Positions 8,471 to 41,164 of a stretch of DNA of 64,000 bases are shown here, piece by piece. The notes under the pieces are model-generated. The model was not told where the DNA came from. It was given only the letters and a program-made list of their open reading frames with translations, and did no database searches. This stretch comes from Dysidea avara (Eukaryota > Porifera > Demospongiae > Dictyoceratida > Dysideidae). The first letter of the stretch is position 1. Each line of letters starts with the position of its first letter. The translations under genes and the position numbers were made by a program. Location: positions 3,770,001 to 3,834,000 of the forward strand of contig NC_089274.1 of the NCBI RefSeq assembly GCF_963678975.1, given 5' to 3'.

Positions 8471-9919
8471 GTGCACCTACCGGGTGTACTGAATACTATA
8501 GCCGACAGGGAGTCCAGACAAATGCTGGACAGGACAGACTGGAAGTTGAACCCTGTGATATTCCAAGAAATCAACAACCTTTATGGACCCCTAGACATGG
8601 ACCTGTTCGCATCCAGACTGTCCACCCAGTGCCCACTCTATTTCAGCTGGCGGCCATGCACTGGCAACAGATACCTTTCTCCAAGAGTGGACAACCATGA
8701 AATGTTATGCAAATCCTCCATGGAATCTGGTGGGCCGGGTCCTTGCACAAGTGTAATCGCAACAGATTCAAGTGGTGCTAGTGGCTCCTGTCTGGAAGGC
8801 ACAACCATGGTTCCCAACACTTCTGAACATGCTGATAGACCATCCTTGGTTAATCATACCGAATCTGAGGAAGCCAATCAGCATAGACCCAATGTCTCAT
8901 CTCCCTCAGTTAGCCGTATGGCTCATCTCAGGGATAAGCTCCGAGGTCAGAACCTTTCAGAAGAAGCTACAGCACTCATCCTCAAGTCGTGGAGGACTAA
9001 AACAAACAAGTCATATGACTCACTCTTTGGCAAATGGCACAGCTGGTGTGCTAAATGGTGTTTCAATCCATTTTCTGGACCTATAACTAATGTTGCCAAT
9101 TTCTTGGCACAGCTATGTACTGAAGGATACCAGTACAGCTCAATTAATTCTTATAGGTCTGCAATCTTGTCGGTGCATGAGAAAGTTGATGGTCATAGTG
9201 TGGGACAACATCCACTGATATCCAGATTACTGAAGGGCATCTTCCATGATAGGCCTCCACTACCCAGATATACTAGTACATGGAATGTTCAAACTGTGCT
9301 AAATTATCTGGAAGGCTTGGGAGAAAACCAGTCCCTCTCCTTAAAGGCATTATCAGGGAAATTGACCATGCTGCTTGCTCTGACACGCCCTTCGCGATCA
9401 GCAGATTTATCCCAACTGGACTTGTCGAGAAGGGTGCACAAACCAGATGGTGTGTGCTTCTATCCTAATGTGTTAGCCAAACAATCTAGACAAGGATCCC
9501 AAATAGCCAATTTCTTTTTTCCCTCCCTTCCTGGGAACCCTACACTGTGTCCAGTGATGGCTTTAAAAGTCTATGAGGATAAAACCAGACCTATTCGTGG
9601 TGATGAGACCAAGTTATTAATCTCCTTCATCAAGCCTCACAAAGCTGTGACATCCAGTTCAGTGGCTCGTTGGCTTAAATCAGTTCTGAGTGCAGCTGGG
9701 ATAGACACTGCAATATTCTCTGCACACTCCACTAGGGGAGCATCTTCCTCTGCAGCTGCTAACATTGGTATCACCACCAATGATATTTGAAAGGCAGCTA
9801 ACTGGAGTTCAGAGTCAGTATTCCAAAAATTCTACTATAAGCCATCTGACAATTCGTCATATGGTAGAGCAGTTCTGTCCAATTCAGCTACAAACAACAC
9901 CGTTGATATGAGAGACTGA
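8471..9919 (+). pseudogene. DIRS tyrosine recombinase (YR), stop before catalytic Tyr
   Basis: After the RNase H tail (HLPGVLNTIADRESR) comes a long linker. The recombinase core-binding part follows (EEATALILKSWR to INSYRSAILSVHEK), then the catalytic domain with LLALTRPSRSADLSQLDL (first Arg) and FSAHSTRGASSSAA (H-x2-R box). A TGA at 9788-9790 cuts the frame immediately before KAANWSSESVFQKFYYKP, which holds the expected nucleophilic Tyr. A protein made from this copy would lack the nucleophile. YR enzymes integrate circular DNA without target duplication, in line with the absence of a clear one here. Confidence 0.9.
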
Positions 9920-11159: not shown

Positions 11160-12370
11160 TTAATCCATTTCCTCAACCAGTCTCTTAGTTGGTATTCGAG
11201 CTCTACGTACAAGAATCTCAGATAAATTACTTGCGGCTTCATCACTTTTTGGTGATATAATTGCATCATTAGTTTGAGAGTCATGATCAGTTACTGGAAT
11301 TACTGTTTCATCGTTGGTATTAGCAAGCCATGGGCGCATATGATCTACATGGGCCTTACAGACTTGACCATCTATTGTTACTTCATAAGCAAATGTCCCC
11401 AAATGCTTTGTAGCTTTGCCTTTGCACTACTTATCAGTAGAGTTGGGCTGTAAATCACGAACAAAAACTTGTTGATCAACAGAAAAAGATCGTGGAGGTT
11501 TGTCACCAACTTGTGCTTCAGCTTTTGCATTCAAATGATCTGACAAATAAGGATGTACTAATGACAATCTTGTACGTGGTCACCTACCAAGCAAAATCTC
11601 TGCAGGAGTTCTCCTGTGATGGAATGTGGTGTGTTTCTATAGCTTGCTAGAAAACGAGAGATTTTAGTTCCGATACTCTTACTACTAGAGGATTTCTGTA
11701 GAGCTCTCTTCACAGATTTTACTAAGTTCTCAGCTGCACCATTAGATGATGGGTGATATGGAGGAACGTGATGATGGTTTACACCATTGGCATCCATAAA
11801 TTGCTTGAATTCAGTTTACATGAATGGGTGTCCATTGTCTGAAACAACAGTACTTGGTGAACCATGGGTGGCATACATTATCCGAAGTTTATCAATGGTT
11901 TGTTGTGCTGAGGTGGAACTTACTAAGTGCACTTCTGGCCACCTTGAAAAAACATCTATTGCAACCAGCAAGGTGTGCTTTCCCCAGCTAGCATGGTCTA
12001 TATGTATTCTTTCCCAAGGTAATTTGGGTACAAGCCAGGGATGTAAAGAAGCCTTGGCTGGGTTGTCAGCTACCAGAGCAGATTCATCACACTCACGAGC
12101 CATCTCTTCAATATGTGTATCAAGTAGAGGCCACCAAATGTAGCTCCTAGCCAGTGATTTCATCCTTGTCATTCCAATGTGGTTAACATGTAACTCAGCT
12201 AATAACATCTTACGGAGGGACTTAGGGATAATAGCACGTCTTCCCCACATTAAGCAGCCATCTATTACCAAAAGTCCATTGGTCTTTTGATAATAGGGTA
12301 AAGATCTACTGATATTTTTGATGGTCACCTTCCATGTTGCACTGATGGCAAGGTGTTGCAACTGTGGCAA
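11160..12370 (-). pseudogene. Gypsy integrase, fragmented
   Basis: The minus-strand pieces 11816-12370, 11558-11797 and 11160-11402 together cover an integrase. The zinc-binding region has HVNHIGMTRMKSLARSYIWW but the second Cys of the CxxC pair is absent (RECDESAL). The catalytic core shows Asp in WERIHIDHASWG and in VVSDNGHPFM. The final Glu is in HPSSNGAAENLVKSV, in a different frame. The C-terminal YEVTIDGQVCKAHVDHMRPW segment is typical of Gypsy pol ends. Frameshifts and stops separate the parts, so no enzyme can be made. Confidence 0.88.
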
Positions 12371-13040
12371 GGTGTTTATCTTTGCTAGACTCTTTAACTA
12401 CTTGAGCAGCTGTCACTGGTAATTCATCAATTGCCATAATGACATGGACCTTCTCAGCACTATCACATTTACTGAAACTAGACAATCGCAACATACAATC
12501 AGCACACTTATTTGATTTGCCTGAGATGAATTCAATCTTGTATTGGTAGGCACTTAAAAGTAATGCCCATTGCTGCATTCTAGCTGCTGCTAAAGGTGGA
12601 ACACCTTCCTTGGGACCCAAGATCTTACAGAGAGGTCGATGGTCAGTGACCAGTGTGAATTCTCACCCTTACACATACTGATGGAAACGTTTCACTGCAA
12701 AAACAATTGCCAGGGCCTCACGCTCTATTTGAGCATATTTCTGCTCTGCTGGCTATAAACTCCGAGAAGCATATGCCACTGGCTGCTCTGAACCGTTCTG
12801 CATAACATGTACCAAACAAGCACCCAATCCCTTTGGTTAAGCATCACAATAAAGCTTGATTGGCTTCTGGACATCATAATGGGCTAGTGTTTCTTGCTCA
12901 CAAAGTAATCGTTTAGCAGCCTCAAAAGCCTTCTGCTGCTTAGATTTCCATGTCCATTTACTGTTTTTCCTCAGTAGCAAATAAAGGAGGTGAAGAACGT
13001 GCGATGAGGATGAAAGAAATTTTGCAATGTATGTCATCAT
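12306..13040 (-). pseudogene. Gypsy RT thumb plus RNase H, truncated
   Basis: It starts inside the end of the RT (FLGMMTYIAKFL, then SKWTWKSKQQKAFEAAKRLL) and runs into RNase H (VQKPIKLYCDA; VTDHRPLCKILGPKEG; AYQYKIEFISGKSNKCADC). The catalytic RT palm with YxDD is missing: at about 13040-13060 the sequence passes straight from Gag to the RT thumb. Stops also break the RNase H middle part (12621-12836). Confidence 0.88.
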
Positions 13041-13686
13041 CCCAAGAAATGACTGATTCTTGCTTGTTCACTGGAGAGGGAGCCTTTTGGATGCTCTTAA
13101 TCTGTTCCTCAGTTGGTTTGATTCCATTGTTAGTCCTGCATAGCTTTAGCTTCCTGGCAACTACCTCAGCAGCTCTTGCACTCTGAAGTGCTATATCTAC
13201 AGTGTGACCTTCTCTACATAATAGCTCTTTCTGACACTTGCTATCACGAAGACCACAGTTGCTAACAAATTGGTCCCTAATTTCCGTTTCCAGATAATTT
13301 CCAAAATTGCATGTCTTGGCTAGTCTCCGTAAATCAGCAATGAAATCTACCGCTGCTTCTCCTTTATTCTGAGAGCGCTTAAAGAATTTAAACCTTTCAG
13401 CGATTTCGATGGTCTTCGGTAGATAGTGGGCGACTAAATGTTCCATAATGGCCTCCAGTGTTTACTCTGAAACAGGCATCGGGCTCGCCAAAACTTTCAA
13501 CTTCGCAAACGTTGCTTGTCCTAGAAATGTAATAAACATTGCCTTCTTTTGATGAACAGCATCAGCATTTTCACCGAGAATGTTGTTGGCGAGGCAGTAA
13601 AAACCAAATCTCTCACGAAAATCTTCTATCGACTCCTTGGCCAGGTCAAACTCTTTTAAACTGCCATATCCCATCCTCGTCGCCAA
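12958..13686 (-). pseudogene. Gypsy Gag, broken
   Basis: Two minus-strand blocks in order are visible: MGYGSLKEFDLAKESIEDF with FYCLANNILGENADAV, then MEHLVAHYLPKTIEIAERF with AAVDFIADLRRLAKTCNFG. These match the capsid-type Gag of Gypsy elements in pattern. An in-frame stop lies near 13459. The zinc-knuckle nucleocapsid end is lost to the same internal deletion that removed the protease. Confidence 0.82.
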
Positions 13687-16660: not shown

Positions 16661-16664
16661 ACAG

Positions 16665-17965
16665 AACACTCTACACAGTGGTTTCTTTATAACTGAACAC
16701 TCTAAAAGGTGACTTCTTCTAGCTTATATTTCTACAGGGTGATTTGTTTGTAGCTGAACTCTCTACATGATGGTTTCTTCGCAGTTGAACTCTCTACAAG
16801 GTAACTTCTTCTAGCTGATGTCTCTACAGGGTCACTAGTTTGTAGCTGAACTCTCTACATGGTGGTTTCTTTGTAACTGAACTCTCTACAAGGTGACTTC
16901 TTCTAGCTTATCTTTCGACAAGGTGATTTGTTTATAGTTGAACTCTCTACATGATGGTTTCTTTGCAGCTGAACTCTCTACAAGGTAACTTCTTTAGCTG
17001 ATATCTCTACAGGGTCACTTGTTTGTAGTTGAACTCTCTGCATGATGGTTTCTTTGTAGCTGAACTCTCTACAAGGTGACTTCTTCTAGCTGATCTCTCT
17101 ACAGGGTCATTTGTTTGTAGTTGAACTATCCACAAGGTAATTTCTTCTAGCTGATCTCTGTACAGGGTGATTTGTTTGTAGCTGAACTCTCTACAAGGTA
17201 ACTTCTTCTAGCTGATCTCTATACAGAGTCACTTGTTTGTAGCTGAACTCTCTACATGATAGTTTCTTTGTAGCTGAACTCTCTACAAGGTAACTTCTTC
17301 TAGTTGATCTCTCTACAGGGTGAATTGTTTGTAGCTGATCTCTCTACATTATAGTTTCTTTGTAGCTGAACTCTCTACAAGGTAACTTCTTCTAGCTGAT
17401 CTTTCTACAGAGCAATTTGTTTGTAGCTGGTTTAACTCTCTACAAGGTAACTTCTTCTAGCTGATCTCTCTACAGGGTGATTTCTTTGCAGCTGAACTCT
17501 CTACATGATGGTTTCTTTGTAACTGAACTCTCTACAAGGTAGCTGATCTTTCTACAGGGCAGTTTGTTTGTAGCTGAATTCTCTACAGGGTGATTTATTT
17601 GCAGCTGAACTCTCTATAGGGTGAATTCTTCTAGCTGAACTCTCTACAGGGTGATCTTTTCGTAGCTGAACTCTCTCCAGGGTGATTTTTTTCAGCTGAA
17701 CTCTCTACATGATGGTTTCTTTGTAGCTGAACTCTCTACAAGGTGACTTCTTCTAGCTGATCTCTCTACAGGGTGATTTTGTTTGCAGCTGAACTCTACA
17801 TGGTGCATAGTTTCTTTGTAACTGAACTCTCTACAAGGTAACTTCTTCTAGCTGATCTCTCTACAGGGTGATTTGTTTCTAAGTGAATTCTCTGCAGGGT
17901 GACTTGCCTGTAGCTGAATTGTCTATCAGATTAACTGGTTGTAGCTGAATTCCCTACAGAATAAC
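16665..17965. repeat. satellite array, about 31-bp monomers
   Basis: About 40 head-to-tail copies of a monomer of roughly 31 bp built on agctgaactctctaca followed by a variable half. The variable halves recur in alternating types (tgatggtttctttgt, aggtgacttcttct, gggtcacttgtttgt), which gives a loose three-monomer higher-order unit of about 93 bp. Edge monomers are the most degenerate. No coding sequence. Confidence 0.92.
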
Positions 17966-21644: not shown

Positions 21645-24600
21645 CTAACGCAGGCTACGCAGCTCATATTCTTCTTGCTGTAGTGTGCAACTGGAATCTG
21701 TGTCTGACTCTCCTTCATCCTGCACACCAACAGTACACACAATTCTATTATTATGGGCTTGTAATACAGTGTTATGCATGGCTGTTTTTTCATCATCTGT
21801 TGCCTAGATGAATTACACATCATCATTATTAAGTATACAAAGTACACATTAGCTCTGTTACCTGTACGGCCAGGCAGAGCTGGTCATCATTACTTACAAA
21901 GTCAGGCTCTGGAGACACCATAACCTGTAAAGCATAATACACAAGTTCATGAACCTGTACACAAGAGTGCAAAGTTTATACATACCCCACAAATGTTATT
22001 GCCACCTGTTCCCCATGAAGTTGTGAAATGTGGTAAACTAACAACACTGGAAGAAAACGACACAGCAGGTATTTTTTTGTCATCAGTGATTTGAGGATCT
22101 TCAGCTAGAGACTAGAAATGTCAATAAAATGAAATAAGCTCTCACCTTAATGAGTCATCCTTACCTGTGTATTGTGTGGAACCAAACTGGCTTCTGTAGT
22201 CTGAGGAGTTATTCTGGCATCTATACTATTATCATTACTAGATGATGGAGGAAAGTAGAAGTGGAAGGGAGGACTCTCGTGTGCAAACTCCAAGGCTACA
22301 ACATGCTTGCCAATCCCTCGTTCACTGCTAGAATACTCATCACTGCTTATAAAAAAACCTGTATATTATAATAATTGATAATCTGGTTAATATGTAAATG
22401 TTAGTCTTACTTGTTGGCATTGCATTGTGTCTCCTTGCAATCTTCAACACCTTCCCATCAGTGCAGCTATTCATATGCATAAGCCAGTAGACTGTTTCCA
22501 TACAATGGCATAGAGAATGGTTTCTATCATGTAAAAATACCTCTGAAGATGGGCAGGAGTTTAGTGTCACTAATCTGTCAGTAAAATGTGTGCACAAAAA
22601 GTTAGTGCTCCAGTTTGCTTGGTTAGTCTTGGGAGAGATGGGTTGGCTATCCAAAAGTGTGCATACTAGATCATTGTATGTTTCAGAATGCATGTTGATT
22701 AATAGAACTTCAGTAGTTGTGAAAAGCAGATAATAGCCAAGTACAAACTTTAGCAGTCTAGTTGCATTATTTGTCGACTCTTCAGAGCAATGTACGGTGT
22801 ACATCCATTGCTGTGGTGACAAGCTTCGACTGCAAAATCTTCCTGATAGAAGCTTCTGTTTAATGCCAAGGTCTTGTAGCAATTCATTACAAGGTTTACT
22901 CAGAGAAGCTCTGATATCCATCTGTGTTGTAATTGATTTGAAATTTGCATAAATGCACATCTGGTCACTGTCAAGTTGGAAGATTTTGCAATCAGTTCTG
23001 CATCGTATGGCATAATACTCACCGTGAGTTTGTGGACACCTTGGGGGATCAGGGTAGTGGGAGAAATTTGGTGTGCTGCCAATTCGGATTCCTTGCCATG
23101 AATCCTCACTAGTGATGAAGTCCTGTACAGTCCAAAAATTACATTTCAAGTGATCTATTTTTGCACTACTAATGAAGATCTCTATTTTTCCTGCACTGTC
23201 TTGGGAATTTATTCTCAGGCTAAAATCTGAAACTGGCAATTTCTTCTCATTGTAATACTTTATAATGGCAATTCTTTTGTAATCAATAGCGTAATCTTGT
23301 GGCAGAGAACTTGACTTTGCTTTGTAATCAGTTTGCATTATCATTTGTGGCTTTTCAAGATTCCAGGACAGAAGGCATCTTGGTGGGTCAGAATTGTGTG
23401 GGTAGCAAAACACAATAGCACACCAGCATTCTTGCTTGTCTTGTAAATGACATTTAACAGCAACCGATGCTGCTCTTGTAAAATCCTGCAAGCTTGTCAT
23501 CTGAGAATTGCCTAAACCAACATTGGATTTCTCAGTTAGTAAAGTACCAAGCGTGTCATCACTGACTTTAAACCAGTGTACTGCTTGCATGTATGGAAAA
23601 GGGTCATTATAGTGAGCAATGCATGGTTGACTATCCCAAAGCTTGTGCCTTGCATCCGTGTCGGTTACTTCTCTGACTGGCAAAAAACTTAATTCTTGCT
23701 TTGCTGTGTCTGCATTTCTAGCATAACTTCTGACTTCATTACAACGTGGTAAAACACTCACTGTTGTCTTAGTCTCAACTTTAAAACTGCATTCTTTATC
23801 AGCTGCAAGTAAAGTAAGTTTACAGGTCAATTGTACACTAGGTTGCTGTGCAGAAGTAGTACCACTTTTAACTCTTGAGATATTGCCAGGTCTAGTTCGT
23901 TTGATATTATCAGCACAAATAGATTGTAGAGCAACATTAGAAAATGGAATGTTACTAAAATAATAAAAATATACTGTACTAACATGCGGTTTGGATAGTA
24001 CAGTTAGCAGTAGACAGAGATTATTCCATAATTTCATTTCTTTCAAACATGGTGGTGGATTGCTGTAATGGAGAAAATGCAAAATATATGAATGCTGTTG
24101 ATTTGTATCTAAACCAACTGGTACATATTTCACGTAAAACTGTACAGGATCTCTGAGACTGGAGTTACTGTGCTGGGGTACCAAGTCTTTAAAACAGAGA
24201 CAACCAGATAGGAAACTTCTTTCAATAGTCAGTTGGGTCATATCATTGTTCATGTACTTGTACATCTCAGCAATATCCTTCACAGAGGGTGGAGGGTCAC
24301 AATAATGAAGGAAAACACAAGGATTAACTTCACTTTGGTGGTCGATAAAACTCAATAACACTACACCAAGGTAACACTGCAGTCTTATTGCCGTGCTTCT
24401 GGTAGCATAAATCATATGCTTTCCAAACATAACCAGTAAGTAATTTAATTTTGATGAATTCCTTGAAAGCTGCATTTCTAAAAAACCAGGCACTTCATTG
24501 ATATTCACATCATCACGATATCCATCATTCTGAGGTTCGCAATCTGCTGCATCAGTGTACAGCTTTTCAGAATGGATATCATCCAGCTCCAAATTAGCGG

Positions 24601-27600
24601 CATGCAGAGTCACTGCTGATGAAACTGTAGAAATACACAAACTGTTTTGTATCAAAAATTGGAGTAAGACCTCTGTCTCCATAACGATGCTAGCTTCTCC
24701 TTGTGATGAAAATTCATGCTCCCATGTAGTACCTGTTGTGAGATGGTACACATTTTTTCTGCTTGCTACATTTCCTGAGATTAAATTAAAACTCCAGTTA
24801 AATAAACAATTTCTGTAATCTTGTGGGTTTATTTCTTCTATCTTAGAGTTCTGGTTTTCACAAACCAAACATTCTGTGCTCTTATTGTTGAAGCAGACCT
24901 TATAAAGGTGCTGAGTCTCTACTAAATTCCACACCCTATAGAACTTTAGCTGAGGATCTGCAACATCATTACGTGATGGATATGCTATTGATGATAGCTT
25001 CTTCTCAATAAAATCATTTGTTGCTCTAGCTTTGCAATAGTCCTGTATATACAGAACCCTGAAAGACTGCAACTTCAAGACAGGAATCAAACACTGCATT
25101 TTCATTTGTGATCTGTCTTCCTTGCATTGATGAACTCCACTTATTAGTTCAACCTCAGTAGATAGTTGTGATGAATCTTTCAAAATAGTATGCAAGTTAT
25201 GCAAAATAGATAGTACTTCCTTTTCAACTTTACACTTTATTTGTGAGTTTCCTGTGCACAGATCATAAAAATCCACTGATCTTCTTGTACTCATAGTAAC
25301 ATATCTGCTACGATGTTTATTGAGCAATTGATAATGCAGAATACTTTGTAGTTGAGTTTGATAAGACGTTTTTAAGTGCCGTTGTGAGTCATAGTAATGG
25401 GGAAACTGTACAAAATGACAGCACTCTTGCCTGATATTTAAACAAGCTGATTCAAGATTGGTATCAAACAGCATTGACTCTCTGACACCAAAGTTGCAGT
25501 CAAAGCTACACTCAGTAAACAAAATACTCATTTCATTGGTGAAATTACCCACAAAGCTTGTAGTCATGCCACCATCTGGTGATCTAAAACACAACTCAAA
25601 ATTCCTCTTCGGAGCATTTGAGTACTGCTGGTAATGAGGAGAAGTATATGCACCAACCTTGCAACAGTTGTGTTCAATGTGTTGAACTAATAAACTCAAA
25701 AATACTGTCTTGCTCTCCACAATCTGAGTGTCACCATTAGCATAAAGCTTATTTACTTCTGCATCAAGAGTAACCATTATGCTATTCAACTGTTTCCTTG
25801 AAAATAACTTGGTATCAAAAGAAGTACAACTAATTGTGCTGGCCTTGGACTGCTTACCAGTGATAGATAGCGGTGGTTCATTAATGATCACATCTTTTGC
25901 TAACACATGACAACTGCCAATCCATGTTTCATAGTGTGTTGTGTAAGTACAACACTGTAACAGCTTCGATTTTGCATCTACTGTTGATTTGTGCACTGTA
26001 TAGTGTCTACGTTGCAATTGCAATGCCTTCATGCATGCAAGTTTTAGCTCTCCAATGCCTAGTGTAGATTTCTCAATACCATTGTCAATCCATATATTGC
26101 AAAACTCTAGGTAGACCGTCTTATGTAACAATGCAAAGAAAATGTTTCTGCCATGTTCTAAACAGATTGCATATGCAAATCTGTCTTTCAGGTTTCCGGT
26201 TGGATGTGATGGTTCTATCACATCAGATTCCATATCAAGTGGTGTTTCTTCTGTGGTGTATAGCTTATTTTTCATTACAAAAACTACATTATCAGTAGCA
26301 TCATTACCCAAACTGATACACTCTGGTAAAGAGTATTTGCAATCTTGTTGATTTGCTACCAACTCTTCTGTTCTGAAGATCTTTGTCATGGCATTGCACT
26401 TAAAGCAAACAAACGTACCATTGCACTCAGAATTCAAATGCTGATATGGCTTTAGCAGGGGATTGACATCTCCACCTTTATTTACCAAGGGATGTGATGG
26501 CATTGCATCTAGCTTCTTGGTATGACATCTTGGTTTGTTACTGACATGACAAATATACTCATTGGTTGTTTCAACTGCATGATGCTCCTGAATGGATTGA
26601 ATAGAGCTGGCATTTAAAAACTGAAATGTTGCAAAGATCAAAGTACTAGAAGCGTAAACTATCTCGTTGAGCCAGCATATTTGCAGTTGTATTTCTTTTA
26701 TTTGGCATGTGATAACTCCTCTTGTGGTTTGAGTTGTAGTACTTAGTTGCTGCAATAGATCAGTCAAAAAAGTGTGCAAGTTGCAATAAAATGGTACTTC
26801 GGATTCACACTGTTTGGCTAGTTGGTTATTGTTGTGTAGATCATGACTATCACCTGATTTTGCTGTGCTGCTATTCCCATCATTCTCATCATCTGCCCCA
26901 TCACTGTCATCTTCTCCATCATTTCCATCTTCTCCATCATTGCCATCTTCTCCATCATTGTCATTTTCTCCATCTTCTCCATCATTGCCATCTTCTTCAT
27001 TTTCTCCATCATTGTCATGATCATCATGGTTGTTGTCTTTGTCACTGTTGTGATCATGATCACCGTCACTGCTATCTTCAATACCATTCTGTTCATGATC
27101 ATTGCAGTCACCACCATCTTCATGATGATCTTGATGATCATCCCTACCACTGTAGTCAATATCCCCTTCGTCACTTCCTTGACCATTGTAACTTTCATAG
27201 TCTTGGTCAATATCATCGCCGTGAATATCATCAACCTTGCAATAACGAGTTTTGCCATGTCTGCTAGAGGTAGAGGTGAAGTTTTGGATGACACTGGTTG
27301 GGGGGCTTGAATGACGATCACTGCCATGACCGCTGTTGATACCAAGGTCATCATGACTACTATCACAATTTTCTCTTTCAACAGCAATATTGCTAAACTC
27401 TTCATTATTATTGCCAGAAAAGCTATAGCAGTCACCTTCATCATGGTTGTCATGATCATCACTGTCATGGTTAACATCACCACCAAGATCATTATGATTA
27501 CCATGATCCTCACTACCAAAATCAATATCACCACTGATATCAACCTTGTGATCATTACTGCCATCATTTGTGTTATCATGATCCTTCCCATCAGCATCAA

Positions 27601-28603
27601 TGTCACCACCATGACAATTGTGTTGGGTATCTTGACTATCTTGATCCCTTCTGCCAAGATCAACATCATCACCATGATCATTGTATTGGGCCTCTTGACT
27701 AGCTTCAATTCTGTCAAAATCAGCATCATCACTATAATTACTATCATCTTTGACCTCTTGAGTATCACGATTCTTCCTGTCAGGATCAGCATGATCATTG
27801 TCTTGAGCACCTGGACTATCATGATCCCTTCTGTCAAGACCATGATCAACACCTTGACTTTCATGATCCTTGCCACCAAGACCAATGCCACCACCATGAT
27901 TATTGCTTTGATTATCATGGCTGTTCCTGTCAAGATCAATATCACCATCATGGTTGTCATCTTGGTTATCGTGGCCAACAGGACCACCATGAAAATAGTG
28001 GTCATTACCATCAAGATCGTCACCATGATCCTGGTTGTCAGGGTCAATATCAGCACTATAATCACCATCATGACAATAAAGATCCTTTTTGTCAAAGCCA
28101 CTCTCAAGCTTGTGGCCATCACATTTATCATAAACATCATCATGTAAAGGTGAAGCACTGATTTCAATTGATCCATTGTCTGCATTTGCAGTACAATATT
28201 CACGTGATAGAATCTGTGTGGCACTTGCTTGCTGCAGGTACTGACCAGCCAATCTAGAATCTTCCATACATGTGTTTACCGTAAGTTCAACTGTCACACT
28301 AGACTCATGTTGTTTACATAAGAATATGCCATCTCTATTTGTACATTTACGAAGTAAAAGAGGGCTTTTGTATGTTTTGATAGAGTCATCAACTTGTTCT
28401 ATTTTCTGGATTGTATCTGCTTCAGTTATTATTGCAGTAGTATTAGAAGGAACAGGTGAATCACCACTTGTAGTATCAGCAGTATTTGTTGAGTATTTTG
28501 AGTCTTCGTGTATGTACCACAGTAGTAATATTTCTTTCAAAGAAGCCTCAAATCCATTCTTGTCAAAAGTTTCTCCCTGATAATGGCACCCTATTTGTTC
28601 CAA
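21645..28603 (-). CDS. gene 1: giant uncharacterised protein, Asp/His-rich, 5' end incomplete
   Basis: I assembled five exons by phase: 22411-28603, 22165-22358, 21986-22111, 21862-21924 and 21645-21803, joined by GT-AG introns of 52, 53, 61 and 58 bp and ending EYELRSLR-stop. The first exon alone is open for over 2,060 codons, which is far beyond chance. No ATG opens it: upstream in frame is a stop, and the first internal ATG is at 28267, so an acceptor near 28588 and further upstream exons are likely. Residues about 172-590 are extremely rich in Asp, His, Asn and Gly. The C-terminal 1,100 residues carry a recurrent motif HY-x-[DN]-PP-x-C (near 24297, 24062, 23608 degenerate, 23395 variant, 23050). 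I see no signal peptide, membrane segment or known domain. Metal binding by the acidic/His tract is only a guess. Confidence 0.8.
26860..28090 (-). repeat. coding minisatellite-like Asp/His/Asn region of gene 1
   Basis: Trinucleotide-rich DNA (atc, cat, tcc units on the plus strand) encodes irregular repeats such as DGENDGEDGNDGED, DHDNHDEGD and NDHGDDVDLGRRDQD. The 26880-27010 part is a clean 9/15/18-bp minisatellite. The composition keeps all six frames fairly open, which explains the long spurious frames on both strands here. Confidence 0.85.
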
Positions 28604-28715
28604 AAATACATACCATTAAATACTACGCCTTTACATCAACATGTGGACAATAGAGCAGTGTGATACCACTTTAAGTTTGTGTATCACAATACCTTACTTA
28701 GGGTCTCAGAATATG

Positions 28716-29304
28716 TGACCCGCTGAGTGAGAATCAATTGTTTTTGCAAAATTCAATTTTGCTATAAAACATACTGGGTAAAAAAAATATGTGCGTTTTA
28801 GTTGCTTTGGTGTGTACTGAAACAAAGCTCAAATCACTAAAACCTATATACCATCAGATCAGATTTGCCTGTTCATGGAGAGTAAGAAAATCTTTGGTAC
28901 AGCATTCTACACATGAGTTATGGGCTCTTATTGATGATGCAGTAGAAATAAAGTTTACCGCTGTCATTTCATTGTTGGGAATGGCATTCTTTGTCCACAC
29001 AGAGACATACAGGGAAAACACTATACCTTGATAGATTTGCCAGTTAATGGTGAACAGGTTGAGCCAAACTCCATCTTTGTAGCTTATTTCAGTCCTGCGT
29101 TATGATTGATTAAATAAGCGCCTGTACTTTATTTGCTATATTATCGCTGTACAAATCGACTGTTCCAACTGTCTAGCGCTATACTGTAACTCCAGGTCAC
29201 AAAAAGCTGAACTTTGGCTGTCCACTCCTTTGTTACTATAGATAACAGAAGCAATAAAATGAAATTTGAGGAATGTACAAAAACTGCTCAGCAGGTCACA
29301 TATA
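28716..29304. mobile_element. short member of the gtgacccgctgag inverted-repeat family
   Basis: The left end (tatgtgacccgctgagtgag) is matched inversely at the right (ctgctcagcaggtcacatat). The sub-terminal cctcaaatttcatttta is shared with the element at 14518. No transposase frame; it lies just upstream of the known part of gene 1. Confidence 0.68.
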
Positions 29305-32300
29305 CTTTAGGTATTGAGATATAACCCAGCTAATGTACACATAATTTAGCACACGAAGATGCAAACATTGTATCAAATATGGTAGTACTGTTTAAGTAGG
29401 GATTCCACCGGAAGTAATGTGCGCTATCTAAAATTCTATCTCTAAAAACCATCCTAGAGACATCTTATGTGACTAAAATCACCTTTACGGAATAACATTG
29501 GTCCATCTAACATCAAATACAGTTTAAAAACAAGAAAACACTTACAGGCAGCCGGATATAGATTTTTTTTTTAAAATCAATAAACAAGGTTTTTTCATCA
29601 CATAGATTCCTACTTCATTTTTAAAATAAATAGTTTGTTCATAGCATAGCCATGATATATACATGTGACTGTTCTATTAGAATGGCCATTATATTCTTTT
29701 TCAGAGTATCTGGGATGAAAATCGTATTAGAGCGTGCTGAACTTTATCTGTGTTGTTTCTTTTGCTATAGCGCACACTTAGCCTTACACACAACAGAAGA
29801 AACAGGCTGCAGTTATTCAAAAGACTCTAGTGATTGGCTCTACCAGAGTAATCACCCTTCCCAGTGGAACAACACAAGGAATAATGTTTGGTTACACATA
29901 TACACATCTGTTTTCAGGAAAGTCACCACTGATAGAACTTGTAATTCATGTCCTTTGTATTGTTTAAGTAGTTTAAATCATGATGGATTAGTTGCTGTAC
30001 AGAGATACCCAATACAAATCATTTATGTGGGCAAAGAAGATGGAAAGACCTGCCATGGTAGTTTGAAGTGATGAACTATGGAGAAGTGGAAATAGCTCAG
30101 AAAGCAAGATGATTCGAAGTAAAGTCTCATGAGACTACCTAAACAACAATAGAATTGACTACAAAAGCAAGGGTAAGCTGAAAGAGTGTTTGTAACTAAA
30201 AATACATTCACTTTCAGGCACCATTGACTACAGTACACTTGGTTTTTGCTGTCAAGTGTTGAAGATATGTTACACTGCTCAGGAGCAAGGTGTACATAGT
30301 AGACAAGAATCCCGTACACAGTGGATAGAAGTTGTTGGCTACTGTTTAAGGACAAAGAGCTGGTCCATCATTGGTTATGTTGGTGTATGTCAAAAAATAA
30401 AGTAGCTACAGCTCTTCTTAGTGGCACCAGGATCACTGTGCTGACCTTTGTGGTATAATATTAGTGCTGTTTTAAAATATGTTTAAAGCATTAAAATACT
30501 GAAGTGATTTTTTATCAGAAATTGATTTGAGTGTGTTTCGAAAATCGTGGATAATAAACTTACTTGAAATTTTAGTGGAATCACAATTAGTGCTGGTAGA
30601 CTATTTTGTACTGTTGAATTTGTTTTTGTTGTTTTTTAATTGTGTGCGGATACCAAGTAAAATACCTCAAACTGGACGATAATTGATATACAAGTTAACG
30701 AGTGGACGTCAACTGTTGATAATTGATGCTGTACACCAAAGTCTTGCCAAAGTCTTTGACTAGATGCTACCGAAGAACATCACTGCCTGGGGAGCTGGAG
30801 GTTGTTGTGGACACCTAGAGTATTAAATTGCCTATCGCTGGGTGTAAACGTTCATGCATATCTTGTTCTAAACAAGAATCCTGTAGGTTGGCATACAACA
30901 CAGCTGACAAATAGACTGCTTACACCGGTACTGGCTTTCACTAAATATAACATAAACAGGTATACTTTTGAGGGACCATGGAGCTATGCATGAGTGAAAT
31001 TATGCTTTCTTTCTGTTAATATGCCCATAGTGGAGTATGCCAACTTTTCTTTACAAATTTCATTAATAAATCAATGAAAGAATAACTGGCAGTATGGTTA
31101 GGGTCTTGTAGTTTAGGTTTACACATTAATCATACTTGTTACTTTTTGCTTTAACTACACATAAGAGATTTGTGTTATATATGATTGTTACCCTATCTGC
31201 AGATCAATCTCTGTAAGTGATTTGCCCTGTAAATATCCAAGCCAAATCAGCCAAATCAGCAGCCTTCAAAAAGGCCATGAAATCTATTTTCTGGAAGGGG
31301 TTCGGATTCGAAGTGCAAGAATGTCTGGGGGGAATCCTGGGTACTTCCCCTGAACCACGTTTGAATGATAATGATGCATACACAAAATGTTCCCTCGGGC
31401 AGTGACATTAAAAGGTGCTGTTTGTGCATGTTTATGCAGCTTATAGAACTGTAAACCTATTGTAATATAGACACTGACATAATATTATACTGACAGCCAA
31501 CTTCACTGAACTTCTTATCAGACGGGAGCCCTCCACATTTGAATTACTTATAGTTGGCAATACTTTCTTCCGGGTATACATTATTCTCGGTCATGCAGTC
31601 CTGTTGACTGCAGACTTGGCTTGTACCAAGCCACTTGTACTCCAATATATTCGACACATCACGTGCCCGAAACATGTGACAAATAAACAAACATTCATCA
31701 TGTAAATATACACCAACTATTCACGGTTTGTGCTAACCCGACACACGTATAGCACGACCACTCAAGTTTATTGCAGCTGCTACCTTGTAATATGTCTCAA
31801 CCAATTGAACCAACAGTCCTTCACCACTTTTTACCATGAATTATGTGCGTCATTGATCATGTGATACAGTACTTGATTCATTGATGATTCAACATTTAAA
31901 ATAATGCAATGTGACCCTCAAAATTAGTAGAGCCGTACCAGTGTGCAAGTAGCTACCGGAGAGCTCAGGGCTATAAGTTCGTCCGAACCATCCAAACCCC
32001 CCTGCCTATGGCCTTGTTAATGTTATATATAGTCAATATTAATAATGACAATACTTTTTTCATAGCTTGGCATAGTGTTGTTTTGGTTCTAAGGTACTAG
32101 AGAACTAAAAGTACTTTTAGTACAGTAATTTATTTTTAGTTGCTTATGTCTTCAATGAAGTCTTATCTATTTATTCTTTGTAAGCTTTCAACAATATAAA
32201 ATAAAACTATCTCCACCAGTGCGCTTTACAAGGCATGCCAAATCACACTGAAAAGCATAACTGTACACCAAACAACTTGTTACTGTGCCTCTAAGTAAAC

Positions 32301-34434
32301 ACTATGGAAAAACAGCCTTAACTAGTAGTCCGTCACAGCTACAAATAAGTCTTACAATGTATGAAATTAGTTTTATCATTGCCTTACTGAGACTGCATTC
32401 TAGTATCATGCATGTGCATACACACAAAATTAAAGTTTATTACACTTCTAAAAAAAACTACCACATAAGCATAGGAAGCAGGGGCTTAGAGGGCCATGCA
32501 AATTATTCGCCATCTCAAGTCTTCTTTTAAAGAACTGTCTTCATACCACAAATGTTTCAGATTACTCTACAATTAACTTTTAATCAATCGATCCATAAAG
32601 CATTTATGAAACTATCTGCTTGTACACCTGACTCCCCAGCAATATCTTATTACGACGATCGTGATAAGCCTCTCTAGAATTAATTTTCTAATCATGAATG
32701 TGTGTGTTACTGGATTGGAAACTTCTAAACGCCACCTAATATATCCACGCTTCGTGCCCCTTATACTGTACACAGTACCCGGAGTGGATTTTATAAGAAC
32801 ATGTTTTCCTTACTGGCGAGTAGTAGGTGCACCGCTATGGAATATAAGGTTCAGCCTATTCATAGTGGGTGTACTGATGTGTATTAGCTAGAAGTTTGAC
32901 AAGCGCGAAAGGTTGATACGAGAGGCGGGATTTGTGAACTACCAGTACACGTAGCACCAGTAAGTAATAAGCATCAGCCTTAAACTAGACTTATTCATCC
33001 CACCATTTTCACAAACATGTACAAATACTTTTTATACGGAAAGTGCCTATACCAGTAGTAGGCTAATCGCCATCCAAGAAACAATCTACTAAACTTACTA
33101 GTTAAAACAACCGAGCTGTATCCAGACAGTAAAACAGAATCTTCGAGTGATAAAGAGTGTTTCAAAACTTCAGGCGCGAAACGCGGATAGTCATGTACTT
33201 TTGTATGGGCACTATACATGTGCTTCCAATCCAGGTAGGGGTGTCTATTATCTATGGTGTAACTGACATAGAGGTAAAGAAGCAAGTATACACTGTTGTA
33301 TTTGATGGCATGATTCAAACATGTTTTATAGTCAAGTATACTTTGAAATTCAATCTCAGAGCAGTAGTTCTTAAAAAAATTTTCCTGGGGGGATTCCCCT
33401 AGACTCCCTTAACATGCAACATGTTCAGCCTACATCTTATCCTTAATATTGTCTGGCCTCCCAACCATGAAGTGCTTCCTACGCCTATGCTCCAGCTGTT
33501 GTTATCTTTCATCCTCTTAGCCTATCCAGAAATGATATCACAAAGTTCAAAATGTGGCTATCAACTTGAATATTACATGATAGCCAGCAATATACAGGTT
33601 GGATTTTACAGCGCAATGCTTCCTTATAGTATTGTTGGATCCTTCAGCTAACATGATCGAAACACTAATAAAGCAGTCGCCTGCATTAAAATAGTCTAAC
33701 CAGCAGCCTGAAGTACTCTAATAGAGCAGACAAAATGTTTTACTAACTATCCTACCAGGGACCATCGTTGAGAGCCTGGTAATAGCTGTCATAGATTAGG
33801 TATATAGACTAGCTAAGTGCCTGCATGCAGCTGTACTGCAACCTCAGGGAAAAGTCACATGATGGGCATGTGGCAGCTGCAATATGTGTAGATGCATGGT
33901 TTCAATGAGGAGATTAAGCAGTATTGAAAATCACTTCAGCTTGTATGCATGCTCCCATCATATGACTTTTTATCAGAAGCAGTAGGTACAGTTTCCAATG
34001 CCTATAATAGACGTTGTCAGTGGGGCTGAAACAGATATCTATATTATCCGGATAGTAATTATAGTAATTTGAAGCCATCAGGGTAATTGCTAATAATTTT
34101 ATGATGACTCTCTCTCATAAATAGTTACATGCTCCGTCTTTTTGAAATGAGTCAAAATAGGGATTTGTGGTTTACATTACCACCCCAGTGATCCCTTCTA
34201 GTTTCATGGCTTTTTCAGTGATCCCTATTCTCCCTCTTAAATTTTCAATTTTTATTCGTCTAGTTTATGTACTTTTTATTAATTGATTTGTTTTAAGACT
34301 GTTCGCATTCTACATAGTAATGCCGTCATTTCAGTACACACATGAAACTGATCAAATTGTAATGTGCATACAGAGTCTCCTAATATGAGCTAGAATTTAC
34401 ATTACTAGTGCCTGATACAGTTAACCACATTATT
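29305..34434. other. no gene recognised
   Basis: About 5 kb with only short frames; the longest is 139 codons on plus at 29652-30071, without recognisable similarity. Fragments of the TGACTGTTCTATTAGA repeat occur near 29665 and, inverted, near 33710. Missing 5' exons of gene 1 may lie at the left side of this stretch, but I could not pick them out. Confidence 0.45.
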
Positions 34435-34439
34435 AGAAT

Positions 34440-34640
34440 ACCATATAGCCGAAAAATTTCGAGGGACGAAACTTTCACGAATTTTGCGAGTGATGATAGC
34501 TTCGTGAAAATATAATTGTGAAATATTTCAGTTTATACACATAGCTATTACCCACTTTCTAGACTTTCATGAATTTAAAAACGTGAAAATAGTATTTTGA
34601 ACAGTTTCACAAAAGTTTCATCCCTCGAAAATTTCTGTAT
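34440..34640. repeat. foldback MITE-like element
   Basis: ccgaaaaatttcgagggacg-aaactttc at the left is inverted at the right (aaaagtttcatccctcgaaa, then atttctgtat). About 200 bp, non-coding. A hAT-repeat fragment (tgactgttctattagaatat) begins directly after it. Confidence 0.72.
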
Positions 34641-35405
34641 TTACATGACTGTTCTATTAGAATATTATAACCATCATACACATAATCGCGGAGTGAAAAA
34701 CTAACCACCTTGCAACAAAAGTCTTCAGCATAGATTAAGCTCCCTGGCCTATACTGAGTTTAATAAAGGAAGATTTTATTAACAACAAGGAGTGCACATC
34801 AGAAAACCTAATAATGAGTGTATCTTGTATGGGGGAGGTTGGCTATGTGCAGAATATTCTGTGGTATAAACTTTTCCTAAGTTAGCAGAGCACTTCAACT
34901 AGGAACGGTGGGCATGGCGGTTGCAAAACGCTTTGTGCATGTGTTGTGTGTGTGTGTGTGTAATGGTGGATCCAGCATGGGGCATTGGCCACCCCCCCCC
35001 CCCCCCACTCCAACAATTCCTTTTAGAAGAGCTCACTATATCCTATATCACTTTGATATGCCAGTAAAGCCAAAATCAGTTTACTGCTCAAGAATTACCG
35101 ATATTTTAGTTTGAAAGGTAGACATATCTCCTCCCTTTACTTAACAAACTCAAACTGTCACCCAGCATAATAAGCACCTCTAAAAATAATTATTGTTTGG
35201 CAGGTGTTTATGTTTAAGCCAGTCATTGCTTTTGCAACAGTTTTTAAGATTTCACAACCTTCTGCAATGGCCTAAATGATAAAATTCAACAGTGAACACT
35301 ACTGAGAGGTGATTATTTGCAGCTACTATGTATATTAGTGCTCAGTGGTATTGAAATTTGAATATCCAGTATAGTAACAGAAAATTATTGCAGTATACTG
35401 GTATA

Positions 35406-35894
35406 CAGTGTTGGGAGTAACGCGTTACGTAATATTATTACTTTTGTGGTAACTAAGTAATATAACGAAATACGCTATAAAAACAGGTAATATAACTCAA
35501 GTTACTTTACTTACAAATGTAACGTGTTACCTAAGTAATATAGTTACTGTAACGAGTCTAATATTACGTAATATTATTACTACAAGTAACAAAATTACTA
35601 ATCTCGTTAGCTATCCTCTGAGTAACGCCTAGCCACAACGAAGTAACGAAGCCTACTAAATGATTCTTATTCACCTGTAACCAAGATTTGCACATTGTCC
35701 AACAACGCAATCATGTAACGTGATAAGGTGGTAGTTTCACAGGTGACAGCTTAAGGCTGTGGACACAAAGTAATATAATATGTAATATTATTATAGTTAC
35801 TTTATTTTATGGGTAATATGTAACTGTAACTAAATAGTTCAGTTGCAAGTAATATGTAACTAGTTACTTTTACAAAGTAACTTGCCCAACACTG
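35406..35894. mobile_element. hAT-type MITE, CAGTGTTGGG ends, perfect 8-bp target duplication
   Basis: It starts CAGTGTTGGGAGTAACGCGT and ends AAGTAACTTGCCCAACACTG. The identical 8-mer ctggtata flanks both sides (35398-35405 and 35895-35902). The interior is rich in gtaatat/gttac repeats. CAGTGTTGGG termini are widespread in animal hAT elements (established knowledge). No transposase. Confidence 0.92.
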
Positions 35895-36087
35895 CTGGTA
35901 TATAGTTAGCTTATTACAGTGGACCTACTATGAAGTGGTATGCATTCCAAAAACCAAAGAATGTAACTAAACACTAAAGACTGGGTTAAAAACAATCTTA
36001 TATTTCAATTTATTGTACTTTGTGTGGGAGGATTAAAGTGCTGCCACGTGCTGTATTTTCCATATTGTACCGATTAGCTTCATAACT

Positions 36088-36132
36088 GCTTCATAACTGT
36101 ACTGTATGAGTCATACAGTACAGTTATGAAGC
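36088..36132. repeat. 45-bp perfect palindrome
   Basis: 22-bp arms (gcttcataactgtactgtat-ga) around a single central G. A further partial copy of the arm (agcttcataactg) precedes it, so the locus also shows a short direct repeat. Confidence 0.9.
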
Positions 36133-37036
36133 TAATTGGACAAATACAGTATGCTTGGGTAAATACAGTACAGCGCTGTTATGTAAGGAATGTTCCCCAC
36201 TCAGACAGCATAATTGATCACGTTCATAACATTGTAAATCACTAAAACTAGCCAGACTAATCCTACTAGTTACATGAACACTTACTGATAGTCTGAAGCA
36301 ACAAATGGCACAACAGATCACGTGCGTGACATGCTAAAACTAGCCAAACTAATCCTACCAGCTCATTCTACGACTACAAATAAATTATATGACAACTTAC
36401 TGATAGTCTGATCACCAAGGTTTGAAGTGATTCAGCTACTCAAGAAAATCGTTCTGAGCAAGACAACCAGGAAGTACAGTAAAACACCTAAACCACTGCC
36501 TATACTTGTGTGTATGAAAATACAGGACAAGGGGGCATGTCATATTTGCCTCGAGACACCTCCTGAGTGCTGTATTTTCTGTACACATGCACAGCGGTGA
36601 TTTAACTATAACAAATGGTGTTACTGGTATATCACCGAGCACTAAAGTATATACATCAACTATAACATATTGTACGTAGCTAACTATATACTAGCTACTC
36701 AGAGTGTGTGGTCCCCCCTTTTTAATGGTGTAGATCTGAACTTGTTCGTACCCTTCCCCTGTAGTGTGTTTGTACGTACATGCATGTGCGCTCGGTGTGT
36801 GTGTGTGTAACCCTGGGCAACAGTAGTACTCACACTACTGGCTACTAAAGTGGACATAAGCAGTTTGTGTTTGCGTGTGGAGTCCAGGACGTCGTTCAAT
36901 GGCGTCACTCTATGCATGTCAGGCTTCTTCCCCTGCTGAGGATTTGCACACCTCACATGGTTCAAACACCCATGCACTCAGAACGAAAATGTTATCAACT
37001 TGGTGACATTGGAATGTACGCTGGAATGTACGCTCA

Positions 37037-39060
37037 ATGGTAGACTCTGATGGGCCAGTAGAGGTAGCTAGTCAATTTGGGAAAGGAGAGAGCCGAAAAG
37101 TGGATCAAATAATACTTACTTTGAAACAGTACACTGAACGTCAAGATCTCGTGGAGCAGAGGCCAGTGTTTGAGAAGATAGCTACTATTCCATCTAACCA
37201 TGATGTTGCTGCTGCTCTTGCTAAGGTAAAGAATAGGGAGGCTCCTGGTAACTCAGGGATCTTACCTGAGATGGTTACGATGGGGATTAATAATGAAGAG
37301 TTTTATGATTTACTAACAAACTTAGTGTGGAAGGAACAACAGGTCCCACAAGAATGGGTTGATGCCATCTTGATACCCATCCCCAAGAAGAGAAATTTGT
37401 AGTGCTGTGATAACTGGAGAGGGATTTCTTTGTTAGAGGTGATTGGCAAGGTGGTAGCTAGAGTTGTCCAGAATCGGTTGCAAGAGCTTGCTGAGAATTA
37501 AGTTGCTCCCTGAATCACAGCGTGGATTCAGGAAGGGTCAGGGCTATAATGATATGATATTTACTATTAGGTAAGTATCAGAGAAAGCAGTTATGGCTTA
37601 TGATTCAGTGCCCCATGAAGCTCTTTGGAAGGTGCTTGGGAAGCTTGGAGTACCAGAAGTATTAATTAACATTGTGAGGTCTTTTCATGAGAACATGACT
37701 GCTCAGATTAGATTAGACGGAGAGTTATTAAAGGGAATTGATGTGAACAATGGCTTGAGGCAGGAATGTACTATTGCCCCAACATTATTTAACTTACATT
37801 CTTGTGCCGTTACTGAAAGATGGTTGTCAAGAATAAAATTTTGTATAAGTTGGACCAACAGCTGTTCCGTAGATCCACCAGTGGGGCAGAGGAACTTGGT
37901 ATTGATGAATGTCAGTTTGCAGACAATGTGGCATTATTAGCCACGTCACATGCTGGAGCCAAAGAGGCCATTAGAGCATATCATTCTACTGCAGCTACTA
38001 TAGTCTTGGATGATCAGTCAGTTTTATCAAGACTAAAATTCTGGTGGCTGGGCATGGTATAACAGAAGAAAATAAGCAACCAATAATAGTAACATCTGGA
38101 GGAGATGTGGAGTGTATGACTGAATTTATATACCTTGGCTCCCCAATAAGGGAAGCTGGACACAGAGGTAGAAAAACGTGTAGCTGCTGCATCCAGAGCA
38201 TTTAGTGTGTTATGCTGTTTTTTCAAGATGGAATCCTGTCAATTACAACAACATACTAAGTGTATTATTGTATGAAGGAGAGTGTTGGGCACGGTATAAG
38301 TTGGTTTGTCTGAACTGTTACCATCAATGTATTAGGGCAGAAAGAAGCAGTGGGAGCAGTATATCTGTTCGGAGACTGCTTGTGAGATGTGGGGTGATTC
38401 TGAGACCATTACTGAGAAGTTGATTAAACAAAGGTTGGAGTGGCTGGGGAATATAGCAAAAATGGGAGACCACAAGATCACCAAGAGAACTTACGACTAC
38501 CGGGTGGGCTGCAAAAGAGATGTTGTGAAAGCAGACCTTAAGATGAGTCTTAGATGACTGGGCTATTGAATACTTGGTACACCTCGGCACTTCACAGAGA
38601 TCAGTGGGACAATCTGTATAATGAAAAGATATGCAACAGTCAACATCATTTGAGAACAGCTTTGCCAACAGCGCAGTGTACATTGTGCAGCAGGACCTTC
38701 TGTAGGGAGCAGGTATGACAAGACATAAATGCGTTGAAGAGAGATTAAAGTCAGTGCACCAAACAACAGGGTGCTCTACAGTGTTCTACTTGTGAAGGGT
38801 GGTCTTGCTGTTGTGAAACAAACCTAACATCACAGATCATGTCCTTACTTCACCAGTGAACAACAGAGTACATTGTTCTGTATGTAAGAGGTCTTTTACC
38901 GGCCTAGTGACCTGAAACAACATAAGTGTTCGGCGGAAAGATCACTACCAGTTAAAGAACAACAAGGGGCCATTCAGTGTTTATTGTGTCACCGTTGCAT
39001 GGTTCCGTAGCAAAGGAGGATTAACTGTTCACAAGTACAAGGCGATGTCTTGAGCTTCTT
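37037..39060 (+). pseudogene. non-LTR retrotransposon (LINE) reverse transcriptase, degenerate
   Basis: In several frames from 37037 one finds RT blocks in order: a piece with VKNREAPGNSGILPEMV, then QEWVDAILIPIPKK (37350-37400), a GFRKGQG-like part near 37530, AYDSVPHEALWKVLGKLGVP (37598), IRLDGELLKGIDVNNGLRQE, and the active-site region reading CQFADNVALLATS (37911 on). FADD has become FADN, losing one catalytic Asp. C-terminal parts follow (RLEWLGNIAKMGDHKITKR near 38435), then a Cys/His cluster (CSVCKRSF near 38873) resembling a terminal zinc knuckle. Many frameshifts and stops. The 3' end runs into a (TG)n tract. Confidence 0.87.
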
Positions 39061-39105
39061 CATACCTGTATGAAGACCACGTGACCTTTATGGTAGTGGA
39101 GAGGG

Positions 39106-39235
39106 TGTGTGTGTAGCATATGTGTGTGTGTGTGTGTTTGTGTAGTGTGTGTGTGTGTGTGTGTACGTGTGTAGTGTGTGTGTGTGTGTGCGCACGTGTG
39201 AGTACACTGTGCAATGTGTGGTGTTGTGTGTGTAG
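39106..39235. repeat. (TG)n microsatellite
   Basis: Interrupted TG/GTGT tract at the 3' end of the LINE remnant. Apparent His/Thr-rich minus-strand frames are artefacts of this repeat. Confidence 0.92.
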
Positions 39236-40827
39236 ATTACATTGTAAGATAACAACCAAAACACATAATTGACAAATAGATACATAGTCATGGTTGATTT
39301 ATTAAAATAATGACAGTCAACCACAAACATGATGTCTTATAAGCCAGCTGTTCCTACCTTGTTACTAAGTGCCAATTATAAGTATGAATTGATTTACATC
39401 AACAACAATGTGTTTGAATTGGTTACTAACTTGCTATGGATATACACCACACTACACACTACTGTTTATAGTACGCCAATTACTGACATCATTTTCGTCA
39501 TGTAATTGAACTGTTCATGATCAGCAGACCAGTTTTTGTCTCTTAGTGCACCAAATTGTAATTTTCATTATGCCATATTCCTTACCCTGATGTGTAACGC
39601 TGCAGGCAGTGCAGGGAATGTGGCAGCAATAGTTAACCAGTGATCAACTTACCAGTAGACAATATCCTAAAAGAAAGAAGGAGCAAATTAGTCTTGCATG
39701 GCCAGACCTCTAGTTTAGTGCGGAGGTTGCCAATTAGAGATTTTTCAGCACAGGCGATAATAATTTTTAATTGATAAGCCCCTGCACTGAAACAGAAGTC
39801 TGTCAGCAAGACTAGCTTGCTCCAGGTGCCCTAAGGGTGCTTACTAGCGAGGCTCTGTATATCCAACCATAGGAATGTGCAAAAAACAAAAATATGCCAG
39901 TCCGGGCCACTGAATTAGTCCGGGCCACTGAATTAGTACGCCCAAATGACTGAAATATTTTACAGCCCACATTGTTACTGTGTAAGTCCCATATTATATC
40001 ATAGATCCTTTACTTTACAAGTGCTGAGTATTATATTATTATTATCATGATGATTTGGGGGAAAAGGGCAGACAAGCAAAGCTGATTAAGCCTGATAATT
40101 GGTATACCTCCTATAATTGGCTAGCGGCATGCTTATCAGGAGCTTTTTGGAAACAAAGTACATTTTCTCTTCAAGCTTTATACGTCAGTGAAGCACTACT
40201 GATCTAAATATCTACTGAGAGCTTGCCTACGGTGATCGAATTTCGAACCCCATCGTTTACTGACTTGTACTGCAACCATTGATAATACCTGAAGACCCAC
40301 GAAACACCAAAACCAAAGTAAGCTACCTCTTCTGGTGCAAGTGATCCTTAGCTTACTTTCACCTACTGTACAGTGTATATAGCTGAGGTAAGCACCACCG
40401 TTTAAGGTAACCATTGTTATAAACGAGGTTATAAAAGGCTATATGTATTATAACCCTTTTTTAATATCACAGGTGATATCACACCCGAAAAAAAGCATAA
40501 CAATCCCGGAAGGTTCCAGTATGGCTACTGTACAGCGGTACAGGCTTACTCCCGAACAGCCGTCACGCGCGACACTATACAGCCCGCGTAGACCTACAAT
40601 CACACATGTGATGCTGTACCTGTTGACGAAGAGATCTTGTTCCTCCCCATCGCGTACAATGATCAGAAGTATAACCTAGTCTTTCTGCAAGGAAACCATA
40701 TCAATTCACATATTATAATTAATTCAATTGTTTCTGCGGTATGATTAGGGTTTTTCTCGGAAATCTTTTGTATAGCTAACTAAAAAATATGGCTACTGCA
40801 CTACATCTTACCACATGTATCTACCAC
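39236..40827. other. no gene recognised
   Basis: Two 70-80 codon frames (minus 40196-40414, plus 40443-40679) have no recognisable domain. A short direct duplication (gtccgggccactgaattagt) occurs at 39901-39940. Confidence 0.5.
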
Positions 40828-41156: not shown

Positions 41157-41164
41157 TCTACCAC

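Follow-up and report, generated by a model that had tools for sequence, protein, structure and literature searches.

A gene on the minus strand of NC_089274.1 (C3) 3770001-3834000 in the demosponge Dysidea avara, the 64,000-nucleotide stretch of DNA that was analyzed as a whole (hereafter, the window), is read here, with confidence somewhat above even, as one of a diverged tandem pair from a fast-evolving family, encoding a protein in which an acidic tract is followed by repeated modules with a short element and which would bind a changing partner. The core of the gene is an open frame of 2,091 codons (22340..28615), and for the 1,467 open codons located 3' of the tract, the probability of arising by chance, given the base composition, is ~10^-45. 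The large exon, in which the first and second in-frame methionines are residues 117 and 705, joins in phase to four short 3' exons, yielding 2,248 residues and a stop codon (Table 1). The first-pass annotation had taken an exon open for more than 6 kb, joined in phase to four short exons, for a real gene; at the sequence level, both the frame and the junctions hold up, and an NCBI entry (P0001, 'uncharacterized protein [Dysidea avara]', 363 aa) agrees with them, matching the C-terminal 363 residues of the model letter for letter through each of the four junctions.

P0001 starts at Met 1886 of the model and is without everything N-terminal to it, 1,885 residues including the tract and the large-exon motif copies; because it begins there, the NCBI evidence seems to reach the 3' part only, and a partial model seems just as probable as a true internal start. 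Within exon 5, comparison with the paralogue described below suggests a possible 48-base intron (21720-21767) that NCBI keeps as coding. Retention of this segment maintains the frame in the window gene; the paralogue counterpart is 47 bases long, and its retention leads into another, still open frame and a different C-terminal end.

Table 1. Coordinates, within the window, of the gene and its parts
Feature	Position	Strand	Residues	Basis or remark
Large exon	22411..28615	(-)		open frame, 5' boundary open; first in-frame Met at 28267 (residue 117)
Exon 2	22165..22358	(-)		splice model and NCBI P0001; paralogue peptide 70% identical
Exon 3	21986..22111	(-)		splice model and NCBI P0001
Exon 4	21862..21924	(-)		splice model and NCBI P0001
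Exon 5 with stop	21645..21803	(-)		splice model and NCBI P0001
NCBI protein P0001 span	21645..22960	(-)		363 aa, four introns
Asp/Gly/Asn/His-rich tract	26816..28090	(-)	176-600	composition
Module A	25232..26821	(-)	599-1128
Module B	23948..25237	(-)	1127-1556
Module C	22412..23995	(-)	1541-2068	intentional overlap with B; alignable with paralogue part P2
Very degenerate copy SPHYQQYSNAP	25610..25642	(-)		by eye, opposite first paralogue copy in alignment; weak
Degenerate copy FPHYYDSQ	25382..25405	(-)		profile match, absent from the profile's building set
Copy FLHYCDPP	24290..24313	(-)		sequence
Copy FLHYSNPP	24053..24076	(-)		sequence
Copy IAHYNDPF	23597..23620	(-)		sequence
Copy YPHNSDPP	23381..23404	(-)		sequence
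Copy FSHYPDPP	23042..23065	(-)		sequence; paralogue without counterpart stretch
Possible degenerate copy FAHESPPF, exon 2	22264-22287	(-)		by eye

The second member of the pair is a diverged paralogue on the same strand (C3:3754937-3758071 (-)), with a 1,044-codon frame, separated from the 3' end of the window gene by 33.6 kb. Its 3' exons match in order, with a different start of exon 2, and the large exons are 45% identical over 467 aligned codons. When the Dysidea avara assembly (550.8 Mb, 108 contigs) was searched, the paralogue and module A found each other genome-wide (E 1.3e-10 and 2.6e-11), the exon-2 peptide retrieved these two loci alone at E<1, and no third copy was detected anywhere in the genome at E<0.01, in a search that gives lower bounds for repeats. 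A transposable element was considered and rejected, two loci having been found at E<0.01 (again, a lower bound for repeats) rather than many copies. Weak genomic matches, both interrupted by a stop, were seen on C4 (E 0.056) and C19 (E 0.20); C1 gave another weak match (E 2.2). DNA-level homology between the two loci covers the 3' exons, the introns and the 3' flank, along with the large exon in a patchy manner; 5' of that exon, matches to the paralogue are no more than dispersed. A 575-Mb Dysidea avara assembly is reported in a 2026 paper, with mention of a second assembly (PMC12909245).

The two copies have diverged rapidly within the large exon. Over the 467 codons (the last few of which fall past the splice site), base identity at the three codon positions is 0.64, 0.69 and 0.65, with dN 0.42, dS 0.58 and dN/dS 0.72 (extremes of ~0.51-0.96 in 100 bootstraps); the 154 codons of the 3' exons yield dN 0.21, dS 0.64 and dN/dS 0.33 (bootstrap 0.19-0.58). 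Identity is 0.70-0.76 in exons 2 to 5 (the exon 5 split having been set a few bases off), 0.75 in the 3' flank and 0.85, 0.56 and 0.71 in introns 2, 3 and 4; the value for intron 1, 0.37, probably reflects misalignment. Nevertheless, the 472 base differences in the 467 codons create no stop codon, whereas random placement produces a mean of 19.0 and a minimum of 6 (500 trials), and, in the 375 codons upstream of the P0001 start, 386 differences likewise create none against 15.5 expected and a minimum of 4 (2,000 trials). Because of this absence of stops, the large-exon frame appears to be protected, judging from the comparison of the two genes; for the large-exon part of P0001, just 3.5 stops are expected, with a minimum of 0, and therefore nothing follows for that part. 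Furthermore, 17 of the 27 gaps in the base-level alignment are multiples of three (p 0.002).

These numbers bear on the alternative that the working gene consists of the annotated 363-residue 3' part only, the upstream frame being a relic or not translated in the living animal, which we consider unlikely. The NCBI start lies directly after CAG, a donor-like GTGAGT is present at 23022, the protein collection yielded no annotated protein for the upstream 1,885 codons and no longer protein from either locus within the length limits searched, dN/dS upstream of P0001 is 0.69 (bootstrap 0.52-0.98), and base identity is nearly equal at the three codon positions. However, a relic would not be expected to remain open in both copies, let alone free of stops through 386 differences, and the motif columns are kept between the window gene and the paralogue. 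The large-exon part within P0001 (88 codons) is not better constrained (dN/dS 0.87, bootstrap 0.51-1.62). Motif columns are identical in 19 of 23 cases and the others in 192 of 444 (Fisher p 0.0003, a flattering value because the motif columns were chosen where both proteins show the motif), and columns near the motif yet outside it are not better kept than those far away (50/131 vs 142/313).

Two parts of the candidate full-length protein stand out. The first is the extreme Asp/His/Asn/Gly tract of 420 residues noticed at the outset, which composition places at residues 176-600 and which contains, among its 425 residues, 107 Asp, 54 Gly, 45 Asn and 37 His; the 25% Asp is encoded by mixed codons (81 GAT, 26 GAC). 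Periodicity is weak in the first half of the tract, where 21 and 42 residues (z 2.2 and 3.1) come out best among 55 lags; in the second half, repetition at 6, 12 and 18 residues is clear and agrees with short DNA arrays at 26876-27018. Loops of the D-x-D-x-[DN]-G type occur at shuffle level (2 vs a shuffle mean of 1.2). In the paralogue, the tract is much shorter: its first part is read as a Met/Val/Ile-rich run, followed by a shorter in-frame Asp/His stretch. The best DNA match of the tract in the paralogue (43 bases, 81%) lies in a frame other than the open one, and 5 of the 12 listed matches are out of frame and 7 in frame, all in simple sequence in which matches are ambiguous. Because the paralogue tract is short and partly in another frame, the tract looks loosely constrained, which would argue that the paralogue, at least, can do without a tract of this precise length and composition, and weakens metal or mineral binding, a function that had been offered as speculation.

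The frame-changed part of the paralogue tract (L005:7380-7830 (-)) forms a hydrophobic run, with a 19-residue hydropathy of 3.37 at residue 104, and two further strong hydrophobic spans are present at 182 and 212; these are perhaps membrane spans absent from the window gene, in which the best 19-residue hydropathy is 1.52, with no clear membrane span.

The second part of the protein carries the motif. All five copies of the recurring motif picked out in the first-pass annotation were recovered, with the His at residues 1437, 1516, 1668, 1740 and 1853 and a spacing of 72-152 residues. The pattern HY-x-[DN]-PP occurs 3 times in residues 605-2068, whereas none of 2,000 shuffles contained it (mean 0.0, maximum 0). 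The paralogue contains four HY-x-D-P copies, and a profile of all nine identified one copy outside its building set (residues 1055-1085, 7.4 bits). When built from the four paralogue copies only, the profile found six sites in the window protein (35.2, 13.5, 8.4, 6.6, 3.8 and 0.1 bits), all but one of which exceed the best of 300 shuffles (3.4 bits). Four of the six lie opposite paralogue copies and therefore show retention, not repetition, which leaves the sites at 6.6 and 3.8 bits as those with no paralogue counterpart. Several copies are shortly preceded by Q-x-C-W or similar (DKQECWC...HNSDPP, STDQQCW...HYYDPP, NIRQECC...HYYDSQ), so that the short element is, roughly, Q-x-C-W ... F-x-H-Y-x-[DN]-P-P. 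FAHESPPF in exon 2, with the counterpart FAHQNPPF in the paralogue, is possibly a further worn copy, as judged by eye. Taken together, these comparisons support the motif as a true repeat. Genome-wide, a DNA pattern for F-x-HY-x-[DN]-PP produced 12 matches (2 for the reversed control), half of them inside the window gene and its paralogue; each of the remaining six is located in a frame of 7-125 codons that contains no second copy.

Phosphotyrosine docking motifs of the form Y-x-x-P are read by SH2 adaptors such as Crk, and the HY-x-[DN]-PP copies could be short linear peptides of this kind, Y-x-[DN]-P being present in eight of the nine copies. We regard this interpretation as highly improbable: in the ninth copy, Asn replaces Tyr (Tyr in the paralogue counterpart), the possible exon-2 copy has Glu or Gln, and the copies also resemble one another at Phe and His and, in several cases, at the upstream Q-x-C-W, which such docking does not require.

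The reading of the motif as part of a repeated module agrees with the self-comparison of the protein. Internal copies are more alike than shuffled sequence: the best internal self-match scores 78, whereas 30 shuffles reached no more than 60 (with window pairs sampled slightly differently between the two), and a profile of module B and the paralogue part P1 detects module A with 18.3 bits, compared with 4.4 for the top-scoring of 500 shuffles. A self-repeat test with looser gaps is weaker (144 vs a mean of 98.7, sd 12.5, maximum 134 in 100 shuffles). In the motif-pair region, identity is 45% for B and P1 (66/148), 34% for A and P1 (49/143) and 30% for A and B (33/111). Module C scores at most 8.6 bits against the B and P1 profile, its best piece being the overlap with B, and its likeness to A and B is confined to the motif. 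Thus, of the initial proposal of tandem copies of an undescribed domain, the internal repeat is supported, but the unit is not simply one domain of 70-150 residues per motif; rather, the alignments indicate that the motif copies sit inside larger modules of ~430-530 residues, of which A and B are recognizably duplicated. A and B may have arisen before the gene duplication, with subsequent loss of A from the paralogue, and unequal rates could look alike. Two further features fit a weakly constrained protein: the residue content of the modules, in which Gly accounts for 2.9% and Cys for 4.6%, and a base composition that varies rather little from one codon position to the next. Structure prediction with AlphaFold2 gave no usable model of the repeat units, the mean pLDDT being 29.4 for the five modules and 48.6 for eleven motif units.

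The protein, which was unrecognized at the outset, has stayed so. Pfam searches with the frame, the modules, the paralogue and P0001 gave nothing above the cut-off (the best scores were 16.9 of 27.2 bits for Collagen, in the tract, and 15.5 of 24.1 for LIFR_N), and no known receptor domain in the window protein passed that cut-off. There was no NCBIfam match for the frame, the paralogue or P0001 at E up to 1, and none in PDB at E<0.1 for the window gene and the five-module profile, with either single sequence or profile; the best PDB rows, occludin (E 0.19) and SMT3 (E 0.46), were dismissed as chance level. In the region 28600-48301, translated in three minus-strand frames with stops as X, no upstream Pfam domain was found at E 0.1. 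P0001 alone passed among 2,486 candidates (E up to 1) and among 5,835 and 3,550 candidates (E up to 10) from the protein collection, and the 23 and 70 stretches matched by pattern in GTDB genome contigs and IMG/VR, respectively, were not confirmed, leaving no relative outside Dysidea avara in these three collections. SZT2, considered on account of a loose likeness, was dropped as a candidate. The literature on sponge acidic or histidine-rich orphan proteins contained nothing relevant by title or abstract start among the matches listed.

Such results could also be obtained with a conserved animal gene that has diverged beyond sequence search and takes its motif from a known fold: the large exon is fast-changing, the protein-collection search requires shared 5-residue words and similar length, and the profiles come from two diverged genes only. 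This explanation appears doubtful to us in view of the negative searches described above and, in particular, of P0001, which includes the slower-changing 3' exons and matches nothing in Pfam even at E up to 5. We interpret the two loci instead as a pair of apparent orphan genes that share an undescribed repeat and are, to date, known from Dysidea avara alone.

The window contains several other elements. A retroelement with a reverse transcriptase (RVT_1, E 3.3e-23) occupies 6472-9790 (+); the open frames that follow have no Pfam match at E 0.01 and look like the tyrosine recombinase end of a DIRS-type element. At 11819-12397 (-), an integrase zinc-binding domain (E 2.2e-10) is accompanied by a partial integrase core (E 8.5e-7, 29.6 bits, below the cut-off of 32.6), in what looks like a Ty3-like element, and 12961-13461, which has no Pfam match, looks like the gag of this element. 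A tandem array with a unit of ~31 bases and higher periods of 61 and 92 bases spans 16664-17959.

Under the interpretation that we favor, the large exon would encode an acidic tract under loose constraint and, after it, repeated modules that hold copies of the short element; this element may be a structural turn that holds the repeat scaffold, with the surfaces between elements free to change, and the protein would most likely bind a changing partner, such as a microbe, a self/non-self cue or another fast-evolving host protein. The binding or recognition role is a guess from the fast evolution; the dN/dS of 0.72 is also compatible with loose constraint on a protein that has no part in recognition, and one gene pair cannot show positive selection. 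The bolder proposal of giant scaffold proteins in keratose sponges that are built from a new repeat domain with F-x-H-Y-x-[DN]-P-P as its hallmark, and whose surfaces diversify under selection for microbe or self recognition, strikes us as quite improbable. The pair represents a case, in an animal genome, of frames of more than 1,000 codons that stay open in two copies while the amino acids change almost freely and a few motif positions are kept. Provided that the complete protein is produced, the gene would be a fast-diverging one, perhaps of the recognition type, in a sponge that already serves studies of symbiosis and immunity (PMC12909245, PMC11229196, PMC6208332). The case is of interest to annotators and sponge immunologists, and less so outside these fields.

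Two kinds of known systems invite comparison. Histidine-rich and acidic calcium-binding proteins, for example, HRC, likewise have a long Asp/His-rich tract; the window tract differs in that its loops are at shuffle level and its paralogue counterpart is short and in part read in another frame. Lineage-restricted, fast-evolving tandem gene families are alike in the tandem paralogue, the lack of relatives found elsewhere and, for the large exon, a dN/dS not far below 1, whereas the window gene differs from them in its unusual length, with a single exon of more than 2,000 codons, and in its internal repeat, the motif of which is kept.
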